Source: Schlesneria sp. DSM 10557 (GTDB lineage Bacteria > Planctomycetota > Planctomycetia > Planctomycetales > Planctomycetaceae). From it: 64,000 nt of DNA. This document shows, piece after piece, positions 15,201-21,530 of the stretch. Within the stretch, counting starts at the first letter, position 1. Each line of letters opens with the position of its first letter. The stretch covers positions 3,286,001-3,350,000 of the forward strand of contig NZ_CP124747.1 in assembly GCF_041860085.1 (NCBI RefSeq). The letters are read 5' to 3'. Position numbers and translations under genes: made by a program. The notes under the pieces are model-generated. The model saw nothing but the letters and a program-made list of their open reading frames with translations, made no database searches and was not told the origin of the DNA.

Positions 15201-15243
15201 CACACTCCCAGTTCAGCCCTCCTGTCGCGGAACGACAGGGCTA
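15201..15243 (-). repeat. REP-like hairpin repeat, arm A of an inverted pair
   Basis: A 43-bp repeat containing a perfect 7-bp hairpin (CCTGTCG, loop TTCCG, CGACAGG). It matches arm B at 18575-18617 at 41 of 43 positions in the opposite orientation. Arms A and B were probably 31 bp apart before the group II intron inserted between them. Confidence 0.85.
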
Positions 15244-15319
15244 CATCGAGTCAGATCAGACCCACTCTACCAAAGATAGGGGTAGGAAGGACCGATTGAA
15301 TTCGGTCCCCCCTCCCTCC

Positions 15320-15352
15320 GAACCGTACGGGCGGTTTTCCCGCATACGGCTC
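15320..15352 (-). ncRNA. Group II intron domain V
   Basis: The 33-nt minus-strand sequence starts GAGCCGTATGCGG and ends CCGTACGGTTC with a GAAA-type loop region between. It has the invariant AGC catalytic triad and bulge typical of domain V. A short GC-rich stem (domain VI, about 15277-15319) follows, leading to the 3' splice site. Domain V begins only a few bases after the reverse transcriptase stop codon. Confidence 0.88.
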
Positions 15353-15357
15353 TCTAG

Positions 15358-16716
15358 TCAGTCGGTTCTTATGGATTGGACGAAGCGGACATGGGTTCCA
15401 TTCAGGTCTTTGTACCCGTGTTCTGCAAAGAAGCGAATTGGCCAACGGATATGAGAGGGACTGCGTTGCGGGTTCCGTCGATGCCGTTTCTTGAGAATCC
15501 GTCGGAGTCTGCGGCGAATCGTTTCGTCGTACTTTTGAAAGATGCTCCAGTGGCAATGACGGAAATAGGCAAACCATCCTTGGGCGGTCTGGTTGATCCG
15601 CTGGATGATCGTCTCCAGCGAGTCACCGGATTGGCGTGGGGTCAGATCGCGGATGCGATCCATAAACCGTTTGTGACTCTTGGCACGAGGGAAACGAAGG
15701 TTTCCTCGAAATGAGTACCCGAGAAAAGAGAAACTCTTGACGCGTGAGTCGACGATGCTTGTCTTTTCAGAATGGAGTGTGAGTCCGTTCGCCTGAACCC
15801 ATGTGCTCACCGTTGCAAGAGCTGCTTCCGCTTCCTCCTGAGATCGACACAGGATGACGAAGTCATCCGCATACCGAACCAATTGGAAACCGTTCTCGCT
15901 CAGGAGGTGGTCCAGGGGGTTGAGATAGGCGTTGGCCAGGACGGGGGACAGCACCGCGCCTTGTGGTACACCGGCAATCGGAGTCCACGGACGCAAGTCT
16001 TCGATAATCCCCTGATCAAGAAACATCTTGATCAAGCCGATCACGCTACGATCCGAGATCTGTTCCTGAACAAGCGCCAGTAAGCGATCTTTGGGAATCG
16101 TATCGAAGAAACTCTTTAAATCGGCGTCGACCACATACACGTACCCTTCTTTGAGCAAACGTTCCACGCAACACAGAGCGTGATGACAGCCGCGTCCATG
16201 CCGGAAGCCGAAGCTTCGCTCATGGAATGTCGCGTCCAGAATCGGTTCAATCACATGAACCAACGCCGTTTGCACGACGCGGTCCCGGACCGTCGGAATT
16301 CCCAGTGGTCGCTTCTCCTGACTTCCTGGCTTCGGAATCCAAGTCCGTTTGACGAAAGAAGGGACATAAGTTCCTTCCCGCAGTTGATCGCGCATCCTGC
16401 CGAGTTCCTGCCGCTCGTTCGCCTCGAAGTCGTCCACTGTTTGTCGATCCACTCCCGCCGCTCCCTTCTTGCCGACTACCTTGCGGGCAGCGCAGAAGAG
16501 ATTCATTGCGCTAAACACCTTGTCCATCAGCGTATGCCATTTTCCTCCTCTCACTTTGTGTTCCAAAAGTGTCGCCAACATGCGCTCTGTCCAAACCGCG
16601 GGGTGAGCCCACTGAGCAATGCTCGGTGTCTCTCCGGCCGGTGTAGCCGCGAACGGCACTGTGATCGGGATATAATCCCGCCTGGAGGCGGGCTTTCTTC
16701 CTTTTGGTTTAGTCAT
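15358..16716 (-). CDS. Group II intron reverse transcriptase/maturase
   Basis: A 452-residue intron-encoded protein that helps its intron RNA splice and copies it into DNA during retrohoming. The start ATG at 16716 has GAGGTG just upstream; the longer frame to 16857 is in intron RNA. Reverse transcriptase blocks are visible: RPLGIPTVRDRVVQ (about 136-149), SFGFRHGRGCHHAL (168-181), VDADLKSFFDTI (196-207), GVPQGAVLSPVLAN (249-262) and the catalytic YADD (282-285). A maturase (GIIM-type) region follows from about 365. There is no HNH endonuclease domain. The ORF looks intact although the intron 5' region is broken by an IS. Confidence 0.93.
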   Translation of the reverse strand: MTKPKGRKPASRRDYIPITVPFAATPAGETPSIAQWAHPAVWTERMLATLLEHKVRGGKWHTLMDKVFSAMNLFCAARKVVGKKGAAGVDRQTVDDFEANERQELGRMRDQLREGTYVPSFVKRTWIPKPGSQEKRPLGIPTVRDRVVQTALVHVIEPILDATFHERSFGFRHGRGCHHALCCVERLLKEGYVYVVDADLKSFFDTIPKDRLLALVQEQISDRSVIGLIKMFLDQGIIEDLRPWTPIAGVPQGAVLSPVLANAYLNPLDHLLSENGFQLVRYADDFVILCRSQEEAEAALATVSTWVQANGLTLHSEKTSIVDSRVKSFSFLGYSFRGNLRFPRAKSHKRFMDRIRDLTPRQSGDSLETIIQRINQTAQGWFAYFRHCHWSIFQKYDETIRRRLRRILKKRHRRNPQRSPSHIRWPIRFFAEHGYKDLNGTHVRFVQSIRTD

Positions 16717-17268
16717 TGCACCTCGACCTTCCTGTTCCCCTTGGCTCCACCGCGTTTTGCTGCACGGCTTCACGGCTACTATGGGAACTCTGACTTCTGT
16801 CGGACGCTTCAACCAGCTTGTTCCGGTGTCGTTGATTCGCTCCTGTCTGTGGGCCACAACACGATGCCCACCAGGCCTGGACCATTCAGCATGGAGCGAT
16901 CCCCACTCCCCGTTTCTGTCGACGCAAGCTGTCCACGACCTTTTTTTTCCGACAGATCTCTCTGCTTATCTCGTTTGACCTTCCAACCATTCCGACCTCA
17001 ACCACCGCATCGCCTTTTCACCACGATCGATTTGTCACGTTACATCACCGTCGTGGTTTGCCGTGTAGCTCGTCAGGGAAGATCCCAGGAGCAGAAGAAG
17101 GGCTCCTTCACACAGCTGAGGGTTCGCCATTGACTAGCAGGCTCCCCGACAGGCTTGGCCGAATCAGGTTCACTTTCGTTTCGGACTGGTTGTTCTCCTC
17201 AGTGGACTTGCCCATGAAATGTGGGCGCGAGGAAAAGCGAGTATGCTTTTCTTCAAGGAGTCCAGATT

Positions 17269-17565
17269 ATGTCGAAAGAACGTCGGAAGCACACGCCGGA
17301 GTTTAAGCGTGAGGCATTGAGTCTGATCAGCAGTCAACAGTTGTCCGTAGCAGAGGTGTCGCGCCGCCTGGGTGTCAGTCAAACGCTGCTCTACAAGTGG
17401 AAAGCGCAGTTCGCGGCGCAGGGCGAGCAGGCCTTTCCCGGCCAAGGCCAGCAGACGGCCCAGGAAGCCGAGCTGTCGCGATTGCGTCGCGAAGTCGAGC
17501 TCTTACGGATGGAACGTGACATTTTAAAAAAAGCGACACAGTTCTTCGCGAAGGAGTCCAAATGA
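17269..17565 (+). CDS. IS3-family OrfA (HTH protein), copy 1
   Basis: A 98-residue DNA-binding part of the transposase. A helix-turn-helix lies at residues about 10-45 (HTPEFKREALSLISSQQLSV, then SRRLGVSQTLLYKWK), followed by a leucine-zipper-like coil (LSRLRREVELLRMERDILKK). The start is ATG 17269, with AAGGAG 8 bases upstream. A seven-A run at 17526-17532 lies in the right phase (A_AAA_AAA) for a -1 shift into orfB. The orfA stop also overlaps the orfB start as ATGA. Confidence 0.94.
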   Translation: MSKERRKHTPEFKREALSLISSQQLSVAEVSRRLGVSQTLLYKWKAQFAAQGEQAFPGQGQQTAQEAELSRLRREVELLRMERDILKKATQFFAKESK

Positions 17566-18422
17566 AATATCAGTTCATTGAAGACCATCGCACTGTGTGG
17601 CCTGCCACAGTTCAATGTCGGGTATTGGACGTTTCTCGCAGCGGATACTACGCCTGGCGAAAACGCCCCGCCAGTGAATCTTCACGGCGACGCGAGGAAC
17701 TGACGCGTCGCATTCAGACCATTCATGCGATGAAGTATCATGATGTTTATGGAGCGCCACGACTTCAGGCAGAACTGAAAGCTCAAGGCCATCCCTGTAA
17801 TCGGAAGACCGTTGCTCGCTGCATGAAAGAGGCAGGAATCAAGGCCTCGACGGTGAAGAAGTTCCGCGTGAGCACGACGGATTCCAATCATTCTCATCCG
17901 GTGGCTGACAATGTCGTGGATCGTGAGTTTGCTCCGTCTCAAAAGAATCAGACATGGGCAGCAGACATCACCTACATTCCGACAGAGGAAGGATGGCTTT
18001 ATCTGGCGGCCGTCGAAGATTTGTACTCACGCAAGATCGTAGGCTGGTCGATGTCAGAGCGAATTGACAGTCGACTGGTCGTCGATGCGCTGGAGATGGC
18101 GGTCCAGCGAGAACTCCCTGCCGAGGGCCTGGTGGCGCACTCGGACCGGGGTGTGCAGTATGCCAGCGAGCACTACCAGACTCATTTGAGACGAAATCAG
18201 ATCACCTGCTCGATGAGTCGCCGAGGCAACTGCTGGGATAACGCACCGATGGAGAGCTTCTTCGCCACCTTGAAGAAGGAACTGGTACACCGCGAACGGT
18301 ATCAGACCCATTCGCAAGCGCGCCAAAGCCTCTTCGAATACATCGAAGCGTTTTACAACCGCGTACGAAGGCACTCGACGATCGGGTATCTCCCACCCGT
18401 CAAGTTCGAACAGGCCATTTAA
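17562..18422 (+). CDS. IS3-family OrfB transposase (DDE), copy 1
   Basis: A 286-residue catalytic part of the transposase with an RNase H-like DDE integrase core. The acidic residues are visible as D135 (AADITYIPT), D195 (AHSDRGVQYA) and E231 (NAPMESFFATLKKE). The spacing of 35 residues between the second D and the E is standard. An HTH_21-type segment lies at about 40-95. It can be made as an OrfAB fusion through the upstream A7 slippery run. The full-length frame suggests a potentially active element. Confidence 0.95.
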   Translation: MKYQFIEDHRTVWPATVQCRVLDVSRSGYYAWRKRPASESSRRREELTRRIQTIHAMKYHDVYGAPRLQAELKAQGHPCNRKTVARCMKEAGIKASTVKKFRVSTTDSNHSHPVADNVVDREFAPSQKNQTWAADITYIPTEEGWLYLAAVEDLYSRKIVGWSMSERIDSRLVVDALEMAVQRELPAEGLVAHSDRGVQYASEHYQTHLRRNQITCSMSRRGNCWDNAPMESFFATLKKELVHRERYQTHSQARQSLFEYIEAFYNRVRRHSTIGYLPPVKFEQAI

Positions 18423-18574
18423 TCCTAACCTCGCGCCCACATTTCATGGGCAAGTCCACAGATTGCTCCCCACCCCTTCTCACGAAGACGCAGTTACCAA
18501 TGTTGGATTCAGGCCGGTAACGTTAGCCTGAGAGGGACTCACACCCTCCTGATCAAACGCCTTCACAGACGCAC

Positions 18575-18617
18575 TAGCCCTGTCGTTCCGCGACAGGAGG
18601 GCCAAACTGGGAGTGTG
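18575..18617 (+). repeat. REP-like hairpin repeat, arm B of an inverted pair
   Basis: A 43-bp repeat with the same 7-bp perfect hairpin as arm A (15201-15243), inverted, with 2 mismatches. Its TAG end directly abuts the proposed 5' end of the group II intron, so it forms the last part of the 5' exon. Confidence 0.85.
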
Positions 18618-18792
18618 CGTCGACTTGGCTGCTTGTTGATCGTTGCGTGCACTCTCTTAGTTGTCGGTAACTTCTGTGGGTCTGTACGGTTTTTGCTCGG
18701 CAGTGTTGCGCGGTTTATTTTCGATTCGGTAATCCTGCCGAGGGACCGGCTGAGGTGCTGACGATTTCACGGACAGTTCAACACACAAGAAA

Positions 18793-19659
18793 TCATTCCT
18801 GCAGTTCGAACTGATGTGGGGTCAAGTATCCGAGGGCGGAGTGTTTTCGGTTGAGGTTGTAGTAAGCGATGTACTCACCGATCTCACGCCGGGCGATGCG
18901 GTGATGTTTGTAGTCGGTCATTTCGAGTTCTGTCTTGAGGGTGCCGAAGCAAGATTCCATGAAGGCGTTGTCGTAACAGTTGTCAGCGCGGCTCATGCTT
19001 TGTCGGGAGCCTGCCCGACGAAGGATCGCGCGATACCGGCCTCCCGCGTACTGCCCACCTCGGTCGGTATGGTGAATCATCATCGGGGCGGGCTGACGGT
19101 CACGGATTGCAGCCTGGAGAGCGGGGATCACCAGTTCTTCTGTCATCGACTGATCGACATTCCAGCCGACGATCCGCCGTGAATAGCGATCCGTGAGAAC
19201 AGCGAGATAGCAGAAACGCCCGTCCGTCAGGGGGACGTAGCTGATGTCGCCAACCCAAAGATCATTCAATGAACTCGGCTCAGGAGCCTCAAGTAACAAA
19301 TTCGGGCTGTACCCTAAACGATGTCGGCTCTGCGTTGTCTTGGGGACGAAAGACTTCGGTTGAATGGCCCGCAGCCCCTGTAAACTCAGCAGTTGAGCCA
19401 CTTTTCGCGGTGAGCAGATCTCTCCTTGATCGGCTAACTCCTCCGCAATTCGACGCGCACCATAACGGCGGCGATGGTTCCAAAAGATGGCTTGGATTTG
19501 TTGAGCCAGTCGCGTGTCACGAGATTCTCGCTCGCTGGGGGTACGCTCTCTCCAGGCGTAATACGCAGACCGACTGACTCCCAACACCTCGCACACGACA
19601 CTGGTTTGAGCACTGCTTGATTGTGCGATACCCGGCACGGCAGCGTAGATGTCTGTCAC
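18793..19659 (-). CDS. IS3-family OrfB transposase of the second IS type
   Basis: A 288-residue DDE transposase. Catalytic residues are D138 (VGDISYVPL), D199 (HHTDRGGQYA) and E235 (NAFMESCFGTLKTE). It starts at a GTG that overlaps the orfA stop (GTGA). It ends with the usual NRKHSALGYLTP box. Identity to the OrfB of the flanking copies is low outside the motifs, so it is a separate IS subgroup. Confidence 0.94.
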   Translation of the reverse strand: MTDIYAAVPGIAQSSSAQTSVVCEVLGVSRSAYYAWRERTPSERESRDTRLAQQIQAIFWNHRRRYGARRIAEELADQGEICSPRKVAQLLSLQGLRAIQPKSFVPKTTQSRHRLGYSPNLLLEAPEPSSLNDLWVGDISYVPLTDGRFCYLAVLTDRYSRRIVGWNVDQSMTEELVIPALQAAIRDRQPAPMMIHHTDRGGQYAGGRYRAILRRAGSRQSMSRADNCYDNAFMESCFGTLKTELEMTDYKHHRIARREIGEYIAYYNLNRKHSALGYLTPHQFELQE

Positions 19660-19958
19660 TCGTTGCGGCCGAAAATGGCCAACGCTTTTTTTAGGATGTC
19701 ACGCTCCCGAATCACTCGCTGAAGCTCCACTTCCAGTTCGTGGACTCGCGCTTCCAGCGTGCTTGCGATCGGGCCCGACTCCTCAAGCTGCGTCTGTTTC
19801 CATCGGTAGAGAACATTGGGGCTCGCCAGGCCCAGTCGCTCCGCAACGGAACTGGCAGAGTGTCCATCCAGCAGCAAGGCCACCGCTTCTTTCTTGAACT
19901 CCTCCGTGAAGCTCCGACGAGTTCGTTTCGCATTTCTCTTTTCGACTTTCTTAGACAT
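19656..19958 (-). CDS. IS3-family OrfA (HTH protein) of the second IS type
   Basis: 100 residues: a basic N-terminus, a helix-turn-helix (FTEEFKKEAVALLLDGHS, then AERLGLASPNVLYRWK) and a C-terminal coil (VHELEVELQRVIRERDILKK). A seven-A run (T run at 19686-19692 on the plus strand) follows CTA in the same A_AAA_AAA phase as the other IS, so a -1 frameshift fusion with orfB is likely. Confidence 0.93.
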   Translation of the reverse strand: MSKKVEKRNAKRTRRSFTEEFKKEAVALLLDGHSASSVAERLGLASPNVLYRWKQTQLEESGPIASTLEARVHELEVELQRVIRERDILKKALAIFGRNE

Positions 19959-20239: not shown

Positions 20240-20275
20240 TGGACTTGCCCATGAAATGTGGGCGCGAGGTTAGGA

Positions 20276-21136
20276 TTAAATGGCCTGCTCGAACTTGACG
20301 GGTGAGAGATACCCGATCGTCGAGTGCCTTCTGACGCGGTTGTAAAACGCTTCGATGTATTCAAAGAGGCTTTGGCGCGCTTGCGAATGGGTTTGATACC
20401 GTTCGCGGTGAACGAGCTCTTTCTTCAAGGTGGCGAAAAAGCTCTCCATCGGTGCATTGTCCCAGCAGTTGCCTCTGCGGCTCATCGAACAGGTGATCTG
20501 ATTTCGTCTCAAAAGAGTTTGGTAGTGCTCACTGGCATACTGCACCCCGCGATCCGAATGCGCCACCAGGCCCGCGGCAGGGAGTTCTCGCTGGACCGCC
20601 ATCTCCAGCGCATCGACGACCAGTCGACTGTCAATCCGCTCTGACATCGACCAGCCCACGATCTTCCGTGAGTACAAATCTTCGACGGCCGCCAGATAAA
20701 GCCATCCTTCATCCGTCGGAATGTAGGTGATGTCTGCTGTCCAAGTCTGATTCTTTTGAGAAGGAGCAAACTCACGATCCACGACATTGGCAGCCACCAG
20801 ATGAGAATGATTGGAATCCGTCGTGCTCACCCGGAACTTCTTCACCGTCGCGGCCTTGATTCCTGCCTCTTTCATGCATTTCGCAACGGTTTTCCGATTA
20901 CAGGGATGGCCTTGAGCTTTCAGCTCTGCCTGAAGTCGTGGTGCTCCGTAAACATCGTGATACTTCATCGCGTGAATGGTCTGAATGCGACGCGTCAGTT
21001 CCTCGCGTCGCCGTGAAGTCTCACAGACGGGACGTTTTCGCCAGGCGTAGTACCCGCTGCGGGAAACGTCCAACACCCGACATTGAACTATGGCAGGCCA
21101 CACACGGCGATGGTCTTCAATGAACTGATATTTCAT
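20276..21136 (-). CDS. IS3-family OrfB transposase (DDE), copy 2
   Basis: A 286-residue transposase, full length, with D135, D195 and E231 conserved as in copy 1. The 14 substitutions are scattered (for example T11R, P113L, H208L); none touches a catalytic residue. It overlaps orfA by 4 bp (ATGA). Confidence 0.95.
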   Translation of the reverse strand: MKYQFIEDHRRVWPAIVQCRVLDVSRSGYYAWRKRPVCETSRRREELTRRIQTIHAMKYHDVYGAPRLQAELKAQGHPCNRKTVAKCMKEAGIKAATVKKFRVSTTDSNHSHLVAANVVDREFAPSQKNQTWTADITYIPTDEGWLYLAAVEDLYSRKIVGWSMSERIDSRLVVDALEMAVQRELPAAGLVAHSDRGVQYASEHYQTLLRRNQITCSMSRRGNCWDNAPMESFFATLKKELVHRERYQTHSQARQSLFEYIEAFYNRVRRHSTIGYLSPVKFEQAI

Positions 21137-21429
21137 TTGGACTCCTTCGCGAAGAACTGTGTCGCTTTTTTTAAAATGTCACGTTCCATCCGTAGGAGCT
21201 CGACTTCGCGGCGCAATCGCGCCAGTTCGGCTTCCTGGGCCGTTTGCTGGCCTTGACCGGGAAAGGCCTGCTCGCCTTGCGCAGCGAACTGTGCTTTCCA
21301 CTTGTAGAGCAGCGTTTGACTGACACCCAGGCGGCGCGACACCTCGGCCACGGACAACTGTTGACTGCTGATCAGATTCAATGCCTCACGCTTAAACTCC
21401 GGCGTGTGCTTCCGACGTTCTCTCGACAT
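21133..21429 (-). CDS. IS3-family OrfA (HTH protein), copy 2
   Basis: A 98-residue helix-turn-helix and coil protein, nearly identical to the OrfA of copy 1. The start is ATG 21429, with GGAGTCC upstream. The A7 frameshift run is conserved (T run at 21166-21172 on the plus strand). Confidence 0.94.
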   Translation of the reverse strand: MSRERRKHTPEFKREALNLISSQQLSVAEVSRRLGVSQTLLYKWKAQFAAQGEQAFPGQGQQTAQEAELARLRREVELLRMERDILKKATQFFAKESK

Positions 21430-21530
21430 ACTCTGGACTCCTCTTGGGAAAGCATACTCGCTTTTCCTCGCGCCCACATTTCATGGGCAAGTCCACCGTA
21501 ATCGTCTTCACAGATCGATAGGACTCTAAA

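Follow-up and report, generated by a model that had tools for sequence, protein, structure and literature searches.

Background

How does a group II intron come to lie, to the base, at the foot of one hairpin of an inverted repeat pair? This question is raised by positions 15201-18617 of a 64,000-nucleotide stretch of the genome of Schlesneria sp. DSM 10557 (NZ_CP124747.1, positions 3,286,001 to 3,350,000; the whole stretch is hereafter called the window), a genome that consists of a single contig of 7.07 Mb and whose relatives, found within its family and by name, are Pirellulaceae-like planctomycetes. Two repetitive extragenic palindromic (REP) sequences, arm A and arm B, here flank a minus-strand group II intron which is itself interrupted by an insertion sequence (IS). 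By comparing this locus with a second copy of the intron, with unoccupied sites and with relatives in other genomes, we arrive at the reading that a mobile group II intron probably entered a REP hairpin through reverse splicing and belongs to a set of REP-homing introns; we put the probability of this reading at about 0.85.

Three target types of bacterial group II introns are named in the accessible text of a 2015 review (PMC4424553): homing sites, terminators and attC sites. A search of the open literature, with subscription papers mostly outside it, turned up no account of REP-homing group II introns; the closest hint, in the accessible part of PMC1525189, is that introns of P. putida KT2440 are associated with REPs in two of nine copies, and association is all that is described there.

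Results

A second intron copy and unoccupied sites define the insertion point

An uninterrupted intron of the same type, which the original prediction of this element from its sequence had proposed to look for, is indeed present elsewhere in the genome. This second copy, starting at G000:C1:4629972, is free of the IS and identical to the window copy over 1927 + 113 = 2040 nt, which suggests recent mobility. It sets both intron ends, with GTGCG at 18574, directly touching arm B as foreseen, and ..CCCCTAT at 15276, the two 3' sides having only three bases in common beyond 15276; a start at 17113, which had been considered as the alternative, is thereby ruled out. The second copy follows the REP-like hairpin CCTGCCGCGGAGCGTCAGGGCTA, whose stem contains one mismatch, so that a scan for perfect stems detects only 4 bp there; the site of this copy again reads hairpin-GCTA^C. 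A second arm was looked for beside its 3' end and none was found there, which argues that a single hairpin suffices.

Homologues of arm A plus spacer (87-89%) lie at G000:C1:5484146 and 5483840, around 5.48 Mb. Both stop at the intron boundary and both are preceded by a different hairpin with TCTA or ACTA, the junction reading CTAC. As judged from the alignment, these homologues are natural unoccupied sites. Further copies of the whole arm-spacer-arm element had been suggested as something to search for; only the half made up of arm A and spacer recurs, in these two homologues. As a separate observation by eye, a longer repeated module beside arm B (window 18690-18750 and L002 at about 1130-1195) also stands, in rearranged form, ahead of the intron-free REP dimers located at 5.48 Mb.

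The anatomy given in the original prediction was confirmed to within one base. The two 43-bp arms (15201-15243 and 18575-18617) are inverted and alike at 41 of 43 bases, and a group II intron does lie between them; the spacer, given as 31 bp, measures 32 bp, and the joined arm-spacer-arm element 118 bp instead of 117 bp. The second copy has a single CAG where the IS is flanked by two, in agreement with an IS3 insertion into the intron 5' RNA, and according to the coordinates 113 + 486 nt precede the ATG at 16716 once the IS is removed, close to the estimated 600 nt. The order of events REP, intron, IS is likewise supported. As a whole, the earlier interpretation is partly supported.

By its domains V and VI, its GTGCG 5' end and its reverse transcriptase (RT)/maturase open reading frame (ORF), the window intron is, on sequence grounds, a mobile group II intron. 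The ORF matches TIGR04416 (362 bits), PF00078 and PF08388. The 5' RNA is conserved, 23 of 34 predicted pairs being changed on both sides among the 21 introns compared; an Rfam scan of this intron at a loose threshold matched no D1-D4 model.

The arms belong to a GTAG-tagged REP family

On the minus strand, the 5' exon is made up of the hairpin and, after it, GCTA, while C is the first base of the 3' exon. Removal of the intron yields CTAC, which is GTAG on the opposite strand and corresponds to the tag of the GTAG REPs described in the accessible text of PMC3733652. A 24-base pattern of GTAG plus hairpin, allowing at most three mismatches, gave 13 matches in the 7.07 Mb and none when reversed. 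Eleven of these matches carry GTAG, one is the occupied CTAG site and one has GTCG, a distribution favoured by the pattern, which itself held the tag.

Four arm-type REPs flank an ORF of 187 aa, one pair on each side. This ORF matches Pfam Y1_Tnp (PF01797) with 28 bits, above the cut-off of 23, and its best NCBIfam match is the REP-associated tyrosine transposase (RAYT) model NF047646 with 57.8 bits, below the cut-off of 80. In the definitions found in the available part of PMC3733652, a tail-to-tail dimer has its tags inside. The window pair is such a dimer, whereas next to the RAYT-like gene the REPs are paired head-to-head; the inverted arm pair behind the proposed label REPIN (REP doublet forming hairpins) is thus present, while the label itself is uncertain. 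A second hairpin type, GGGTGCCGGAGGCACAAGATG, occurs at G000:C1:2387334, 2389272, 3769371 and 4071846, within 1.5 kb of Y1_Tnp matches, and related introns insert after hairpins of this type.

Most readable relatives insert at a nearly fixed distance from a hairpin loop

At E<=1e-90, 13 of the 170 genomes from the same family and 5 of the 33 from another family contained relatives of the RT, while at E<=1e-60 matches occurred in 29 of 392 genomes of the phylum, IIC-like proteins among them. Alignment against named genomes yielded 80 loci. We located 62 insertions in 47 groups, the named records being mostly metagenome-assembled genomes. Rows left out were G458 (1 nt of exon) and G114, G255, G124, G482, G516b, G400 and G537 (5' end not located), as well as 11 of 48 loci (L163, L167, L168, L171, L175, L182, L186, L187, L189, L201 and L206); for L158, L178 and L212 the 5' end was assigned by eye.

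Hairpins were counted at the 60 insertions for which 24 nt of exon or more were available (L160 and L169, with less, were excluded), and control sites were picked at random over entire loci, intron sequence included. Near the cut, 52 of the 60 sites had a perfect stem of 5 bp or more and 38 had one of 6 bp or more, compared to 3.7% of 17,389 random sites for the latter. A stem of 5 bp or more combined with a spacing of 9-12 nt between loop edge and cut was found at 48 sites (37 of 45 groups), compared to 4.4% of 17,991 random sites; this spacing is shown by 25.6% of random hairpins. The commonest loop-to-cut distance was 11 nt (24 sites), and at each of the 38 sites whose stem reached 6 bp the distance was 8-12 nt.

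A constant CTA^C target was considered and rejected, since CTA precedes the cut in only 26 of 62 insertions (17 of 47 groups). Directly behind the cut stood C in 18 of 21 cases and T in three, nine of the 21 being copies from G389. These nine copies all lie at ..CCTA^, after differing hairpins, and no second arm was seen in the 3' flanks shown for them.

EBS1 follows the sequence of the target

The loop bearing exon-binding site 1 (EBS1) was located by means of a conserved anchor, without consulting the exon, and paired with intron-binding site 1 (IBS1). For the window intron, the predicted pairing with the last bases of arm B was found, TAGTC facing GGCTA with four Watson-Crick pairs and one G-U. 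Over 46 distinct items, 209 of 230 positions were Watson-Crick and 10 more G-U, with 30 items perfect; over 10,000 permutations the number of Watson-Crick positions averaged 80.6 and never exceeded 115, a comparison that overstates independence because related introns share both EBS1 and IBS1. Six rows in which the anchor was not found stood outside this count; adding them as automatically located gives 226 of 260. The pairs differ widely: TAGGG:CCCTA (G389, G195), TAGCC:GGCTA (G508, L161) and TAGCG:CGCTA (G543), next to CTTCT:AGAAG (G418), ATTCT:AGAAT (G429) and GATTC:GAATC (L183, L199). As EBS1 of related introns is matched to other hairpins, the group seems to follow whichever REP its host carries.

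Target hairpins recur in several host genomes

In the genomes where this was well tested, the target hairpins proved, by pattern matching, to be repeated REPs. A GTAG pattern made from one occupied site in the G389 genome had 10 matches there, nine with GTAG and the tenth being the occupied site. Pirellulaceae bacterium PLA12 has four intron copies, three of which (L153, L154 and L155) lie in a REP with 114 matches in that genome, within tail-to-tail dimers without spacer that read CTA^CGTAG or variants. A CGTC-type hairpin pattern built on L183 had 145 matches in the L183 genome and 152 in that of L177. The AAGAAG-type hairpin was found in six of seven Pirellulaceae genomes (1-10 matches each; the reversed control gave one match, in G418), and four of its five matches in the Schlesneria genome lie within 1.5 kb of Y1_Tnp matches.

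Features of the locus and neighbouring insertion sequences

The coordinates of all features are collected in Table 1. The IS inside the intron is 1256 bp long and belongs to the IS3 family according to NCBIfam, with two ORFs, inverted ends and a 3-bp duplication. Because it splits the intron 113 nt from the 5' end, splicing of the window copy itself is doubtful, the ORF still being open. Another copy of this IS, with 94% identity and in reverse orientation, occupies window positions 20240-21495, and a further IS3-family element with two ORFs lies immediately past arm B (18793-19958). At the N-terminus of the RT (16537-16716, minus strand), about 60 residues are unmatched in GsI-IIC and partly conserved among the relatives.

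Table 1. Features of the REP-intron-IS locus in window coordinates
Feature	Position	Strand	Remark
Arm A, GTAG-tagged REP	15201..15244	-	Tag GTAG reads 15244 to 15241 on the minus strand
Spacer of the tail-to-tail REP dimer, 32 bp	15244..15275	.	Unoccupied homologues end at base 15275
Group II intron, 3' part, 1927 nt	15276..17202	-	Rest of 5' RNA, ORF, domains V-VI
Domains V and VI	15276..15354	-	Rfam RF00029, 58.2 bits (cut-off 40); AGC in domain V; intron end ..CCCCTAT
Intron-encoded reverse transcriptase/maturase	15358..16716	-	452 aa from ATG; 499 aa from upstream GTG at 16857
EBS1 (TAGTC)	17132..17136	-	Pairs with IBS1
CAG, left copy of IS target duplication	17200..17202	.	One CAG in second copy
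IS3-family IS, two ORFs, in intron 5' RNA	17203..18458	+	
CAG, right copy of IS target duplication	18459..18461	.	
Group II intron, 5' part, 113 nt	18462..18574	-	Begins GTGCG at 18574
IBS1 (GGCTA)	18575..18579	-	REP hairpin base and most of the tag complement
Arm B, GTAG-tagged REP	18575..18617	+	Its G is parted from TAG by the intron

Discussion

At the level of sequence, comparison establishes the exact position of the insertion, the matching of EBS1 and IBS1, the loop-to-cut spacing, the recent copying and the later arrival of the IS. As the target rule is common to most readable relatives, the window insertion is unlikely to be incidental. We propose that the REP would fold as a hairpin in single-stranded DNA, and that the ribonucleoprotein (RNP) of the intron may measure about 11 nt from the loop to the cut, a spacing taken from the comparison. 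EBS1 would then pair with the last five bases before the cut, a pairing shown by covariation; these bases in GTAG-type REPs are two bases of the hairpin base plus CTA, the next base usually being C. Finally the reverse transcriptase of the intron would copy the intron in, as expected from its family. We envisage that the RNP recognises the loop or the stem and that reverse splicing is followed by cDNA synthesis, as in the E. rectale IIC structure, to the extent that it is described in the accessible part of PMC10190682. In the window, the intron would have entered one REP of a tail-to-tail dimer, which divided its tag into CTA^C (on the opposite strand, G^TAG); later the IS3 element with its 3-bp duplication broke the 5' RNA.

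Several observations weigh against this reading, next to the overstated independence in the permutation test. The stem-and-spacing rule is broken at 12 of 60 sites, including the second copy in the same genome, with its stem mismatch, and two of the nine G389 sites, and a stem scan of the L159, L165 and L173 sites found no stem. Pairing is poor in L159 (two of five positions, EBS1 probably mislocated), G515, L156 (mislocated) and L180. Furthermore, the CGTC pattern built on L183 gave seven matches for L199, one for L173 and none for L190, and REP status was covered in few hosts.

The nearest competing explanation is ordinary group IIC targeting, in which REP hairpins would be taken as terminator-like structures. 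IIC introns are known to use stem-loop DNA (accessible text of PMC10190682 and PMC4424553) and among proteins of solved structure the RT has its best relatives in the IIC proteins 6ar1 and 7uim; nevertheless we consider this explanation unlikely. The Schlesneria genome contains an IIC-like family of its own (L117-L124 and L070; nine copies, 97.7-100% identical) that lies mostly after long terminator-like stems. Six of its eight readable copies have stems of 10-16 bp and a loop-to-cut distance of 17-22 nt, the other two having no good perfect stem, whereas the window intron's group shows 8-12 nt at all 38 sites whose stem is 6 bp or longer; this distance does separate the two. The long terminator or attC stem with about 8 nt from stem to cut, a group IIC trait, is not seen in the window intron's group, the short hairpins examined have no T tract ahead of the cut, and the repeat family of the arms also occurs next to a RAYT-like gene. 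When 73 RTs were placed in a tree, a branch with 99/95 support set the 18 IIC-like ones on one side, and the remaining RTs would form a clade only with the root on the IIC-like side; among the 18 IIC-like RTs, targets were checked for the Schlesneria terminator family only.

Other dividing lines were tried and rejected. The distance from stem base to cut fails since terminator stems run into their tails. A CGC triad in domain V is a mark of IIC, and AGC was found instead in the window intron and in 11 of 11 relatives shown; of six outside introns, CGC is present in the Schlesneria terminator family, L213 and L220, but L203, L205 and L207 have AGC as well, so that domain V was dropped as a divider. 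Nor are the REP-targeting RTs supported as one clade: a midpoint-rooted drawing places the IIC-like rows inside, and CTA targets need nine changes.

That the dimer (or REPIN) and not the single hairpin is the target seems improbable to us. The window copy and three of the four PLA12 copies do lie in tail-to-tail dimers; against this stand the second Schlesneria copy and the G389 copies, without a second arm in the 3' flanks inspected. Less probable by far is chance or host bias, according to which REPs fill intergenic space and harmless landings would often adjoin one. Neither Schlesneria copy falls within an obvious gene, and REPs themselves are extragenic, but the base-exact position, the EBS1 matching and the fixed loop distance in most of the 47 groups, with the low random rate in the same loci, speak against it, and the covariation of EBS1 and IBS1 refutes it in the main.

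Homing of a mobile intron to REP hairpins thus remains our preferred reading, and it leads to a broader proposal, which we hold to be somewhat better supported than its negation: a broad intron group, in at least 10 phyla as named in the records, may parasitise REPs by reading a short hairpin with a loop-to-cut ruler of about 11 nt, with EBS1 tuned to the bases at the REP end (CTA of the GTAG tag, AAGAAG, GAATC and others), and could switch between REP families by a five-base change. If true, REP homing would be a fourth target type beside the three in the accessible text of PMC4424553, and two selfish systems would be tied together, introns living on repeats made by RAYTs. Such an intron would have a short programmable target composed of loop, ruler and five bases, and the evolution of stem-loop recognition in group II introns would become testable by comparison. 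The nearly fixed distance to the hairpin loop looks like an undescribed way of intron target choice.

Known systems share parts of this arrangement. The REPs resemble the GTAG-tagged REPs with RAYT of PMC3733652 in tag, stem length, dimers 20-100 bp apart and a RAYT neighbour; here they would be an intron target, while the word intron is absent from the accessible part of that text. REPs also serve as landing sites for ISPpu9, ISPpu10, ISPsy8 and ISPa11, which in the available text of PMC1525189 are transposase elements. The endonuclease-less classes D, E, F and g1-g4 (PMC3552965) likewise have an RT/maturase without a recognised endonuclease domain, and a IIB-like domain V is possible for them; no target of the REP-hairpin kind is described in the main text there. 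Group IIC, with terminator or attC targets and GsI-IIC and the E. rectale intron as examples, is similar in its RT/maturase without endonuclease match and, in the accessible part of PMC10190682, in the use of a DNA stem-loop with short EBS1/IBS1 and EBS3/IBS3 contacts. It differs from the window intron's group, in which a short REP hairpin appears to be cut 9-12 nt from its loop and IBS1 follows the stem almost directly; GsI-IIC, moreover, lacks a counterpart of the RT N-terminus, and the terminator family of the same genome carries CGC in domain V where the window intron carries AGC.

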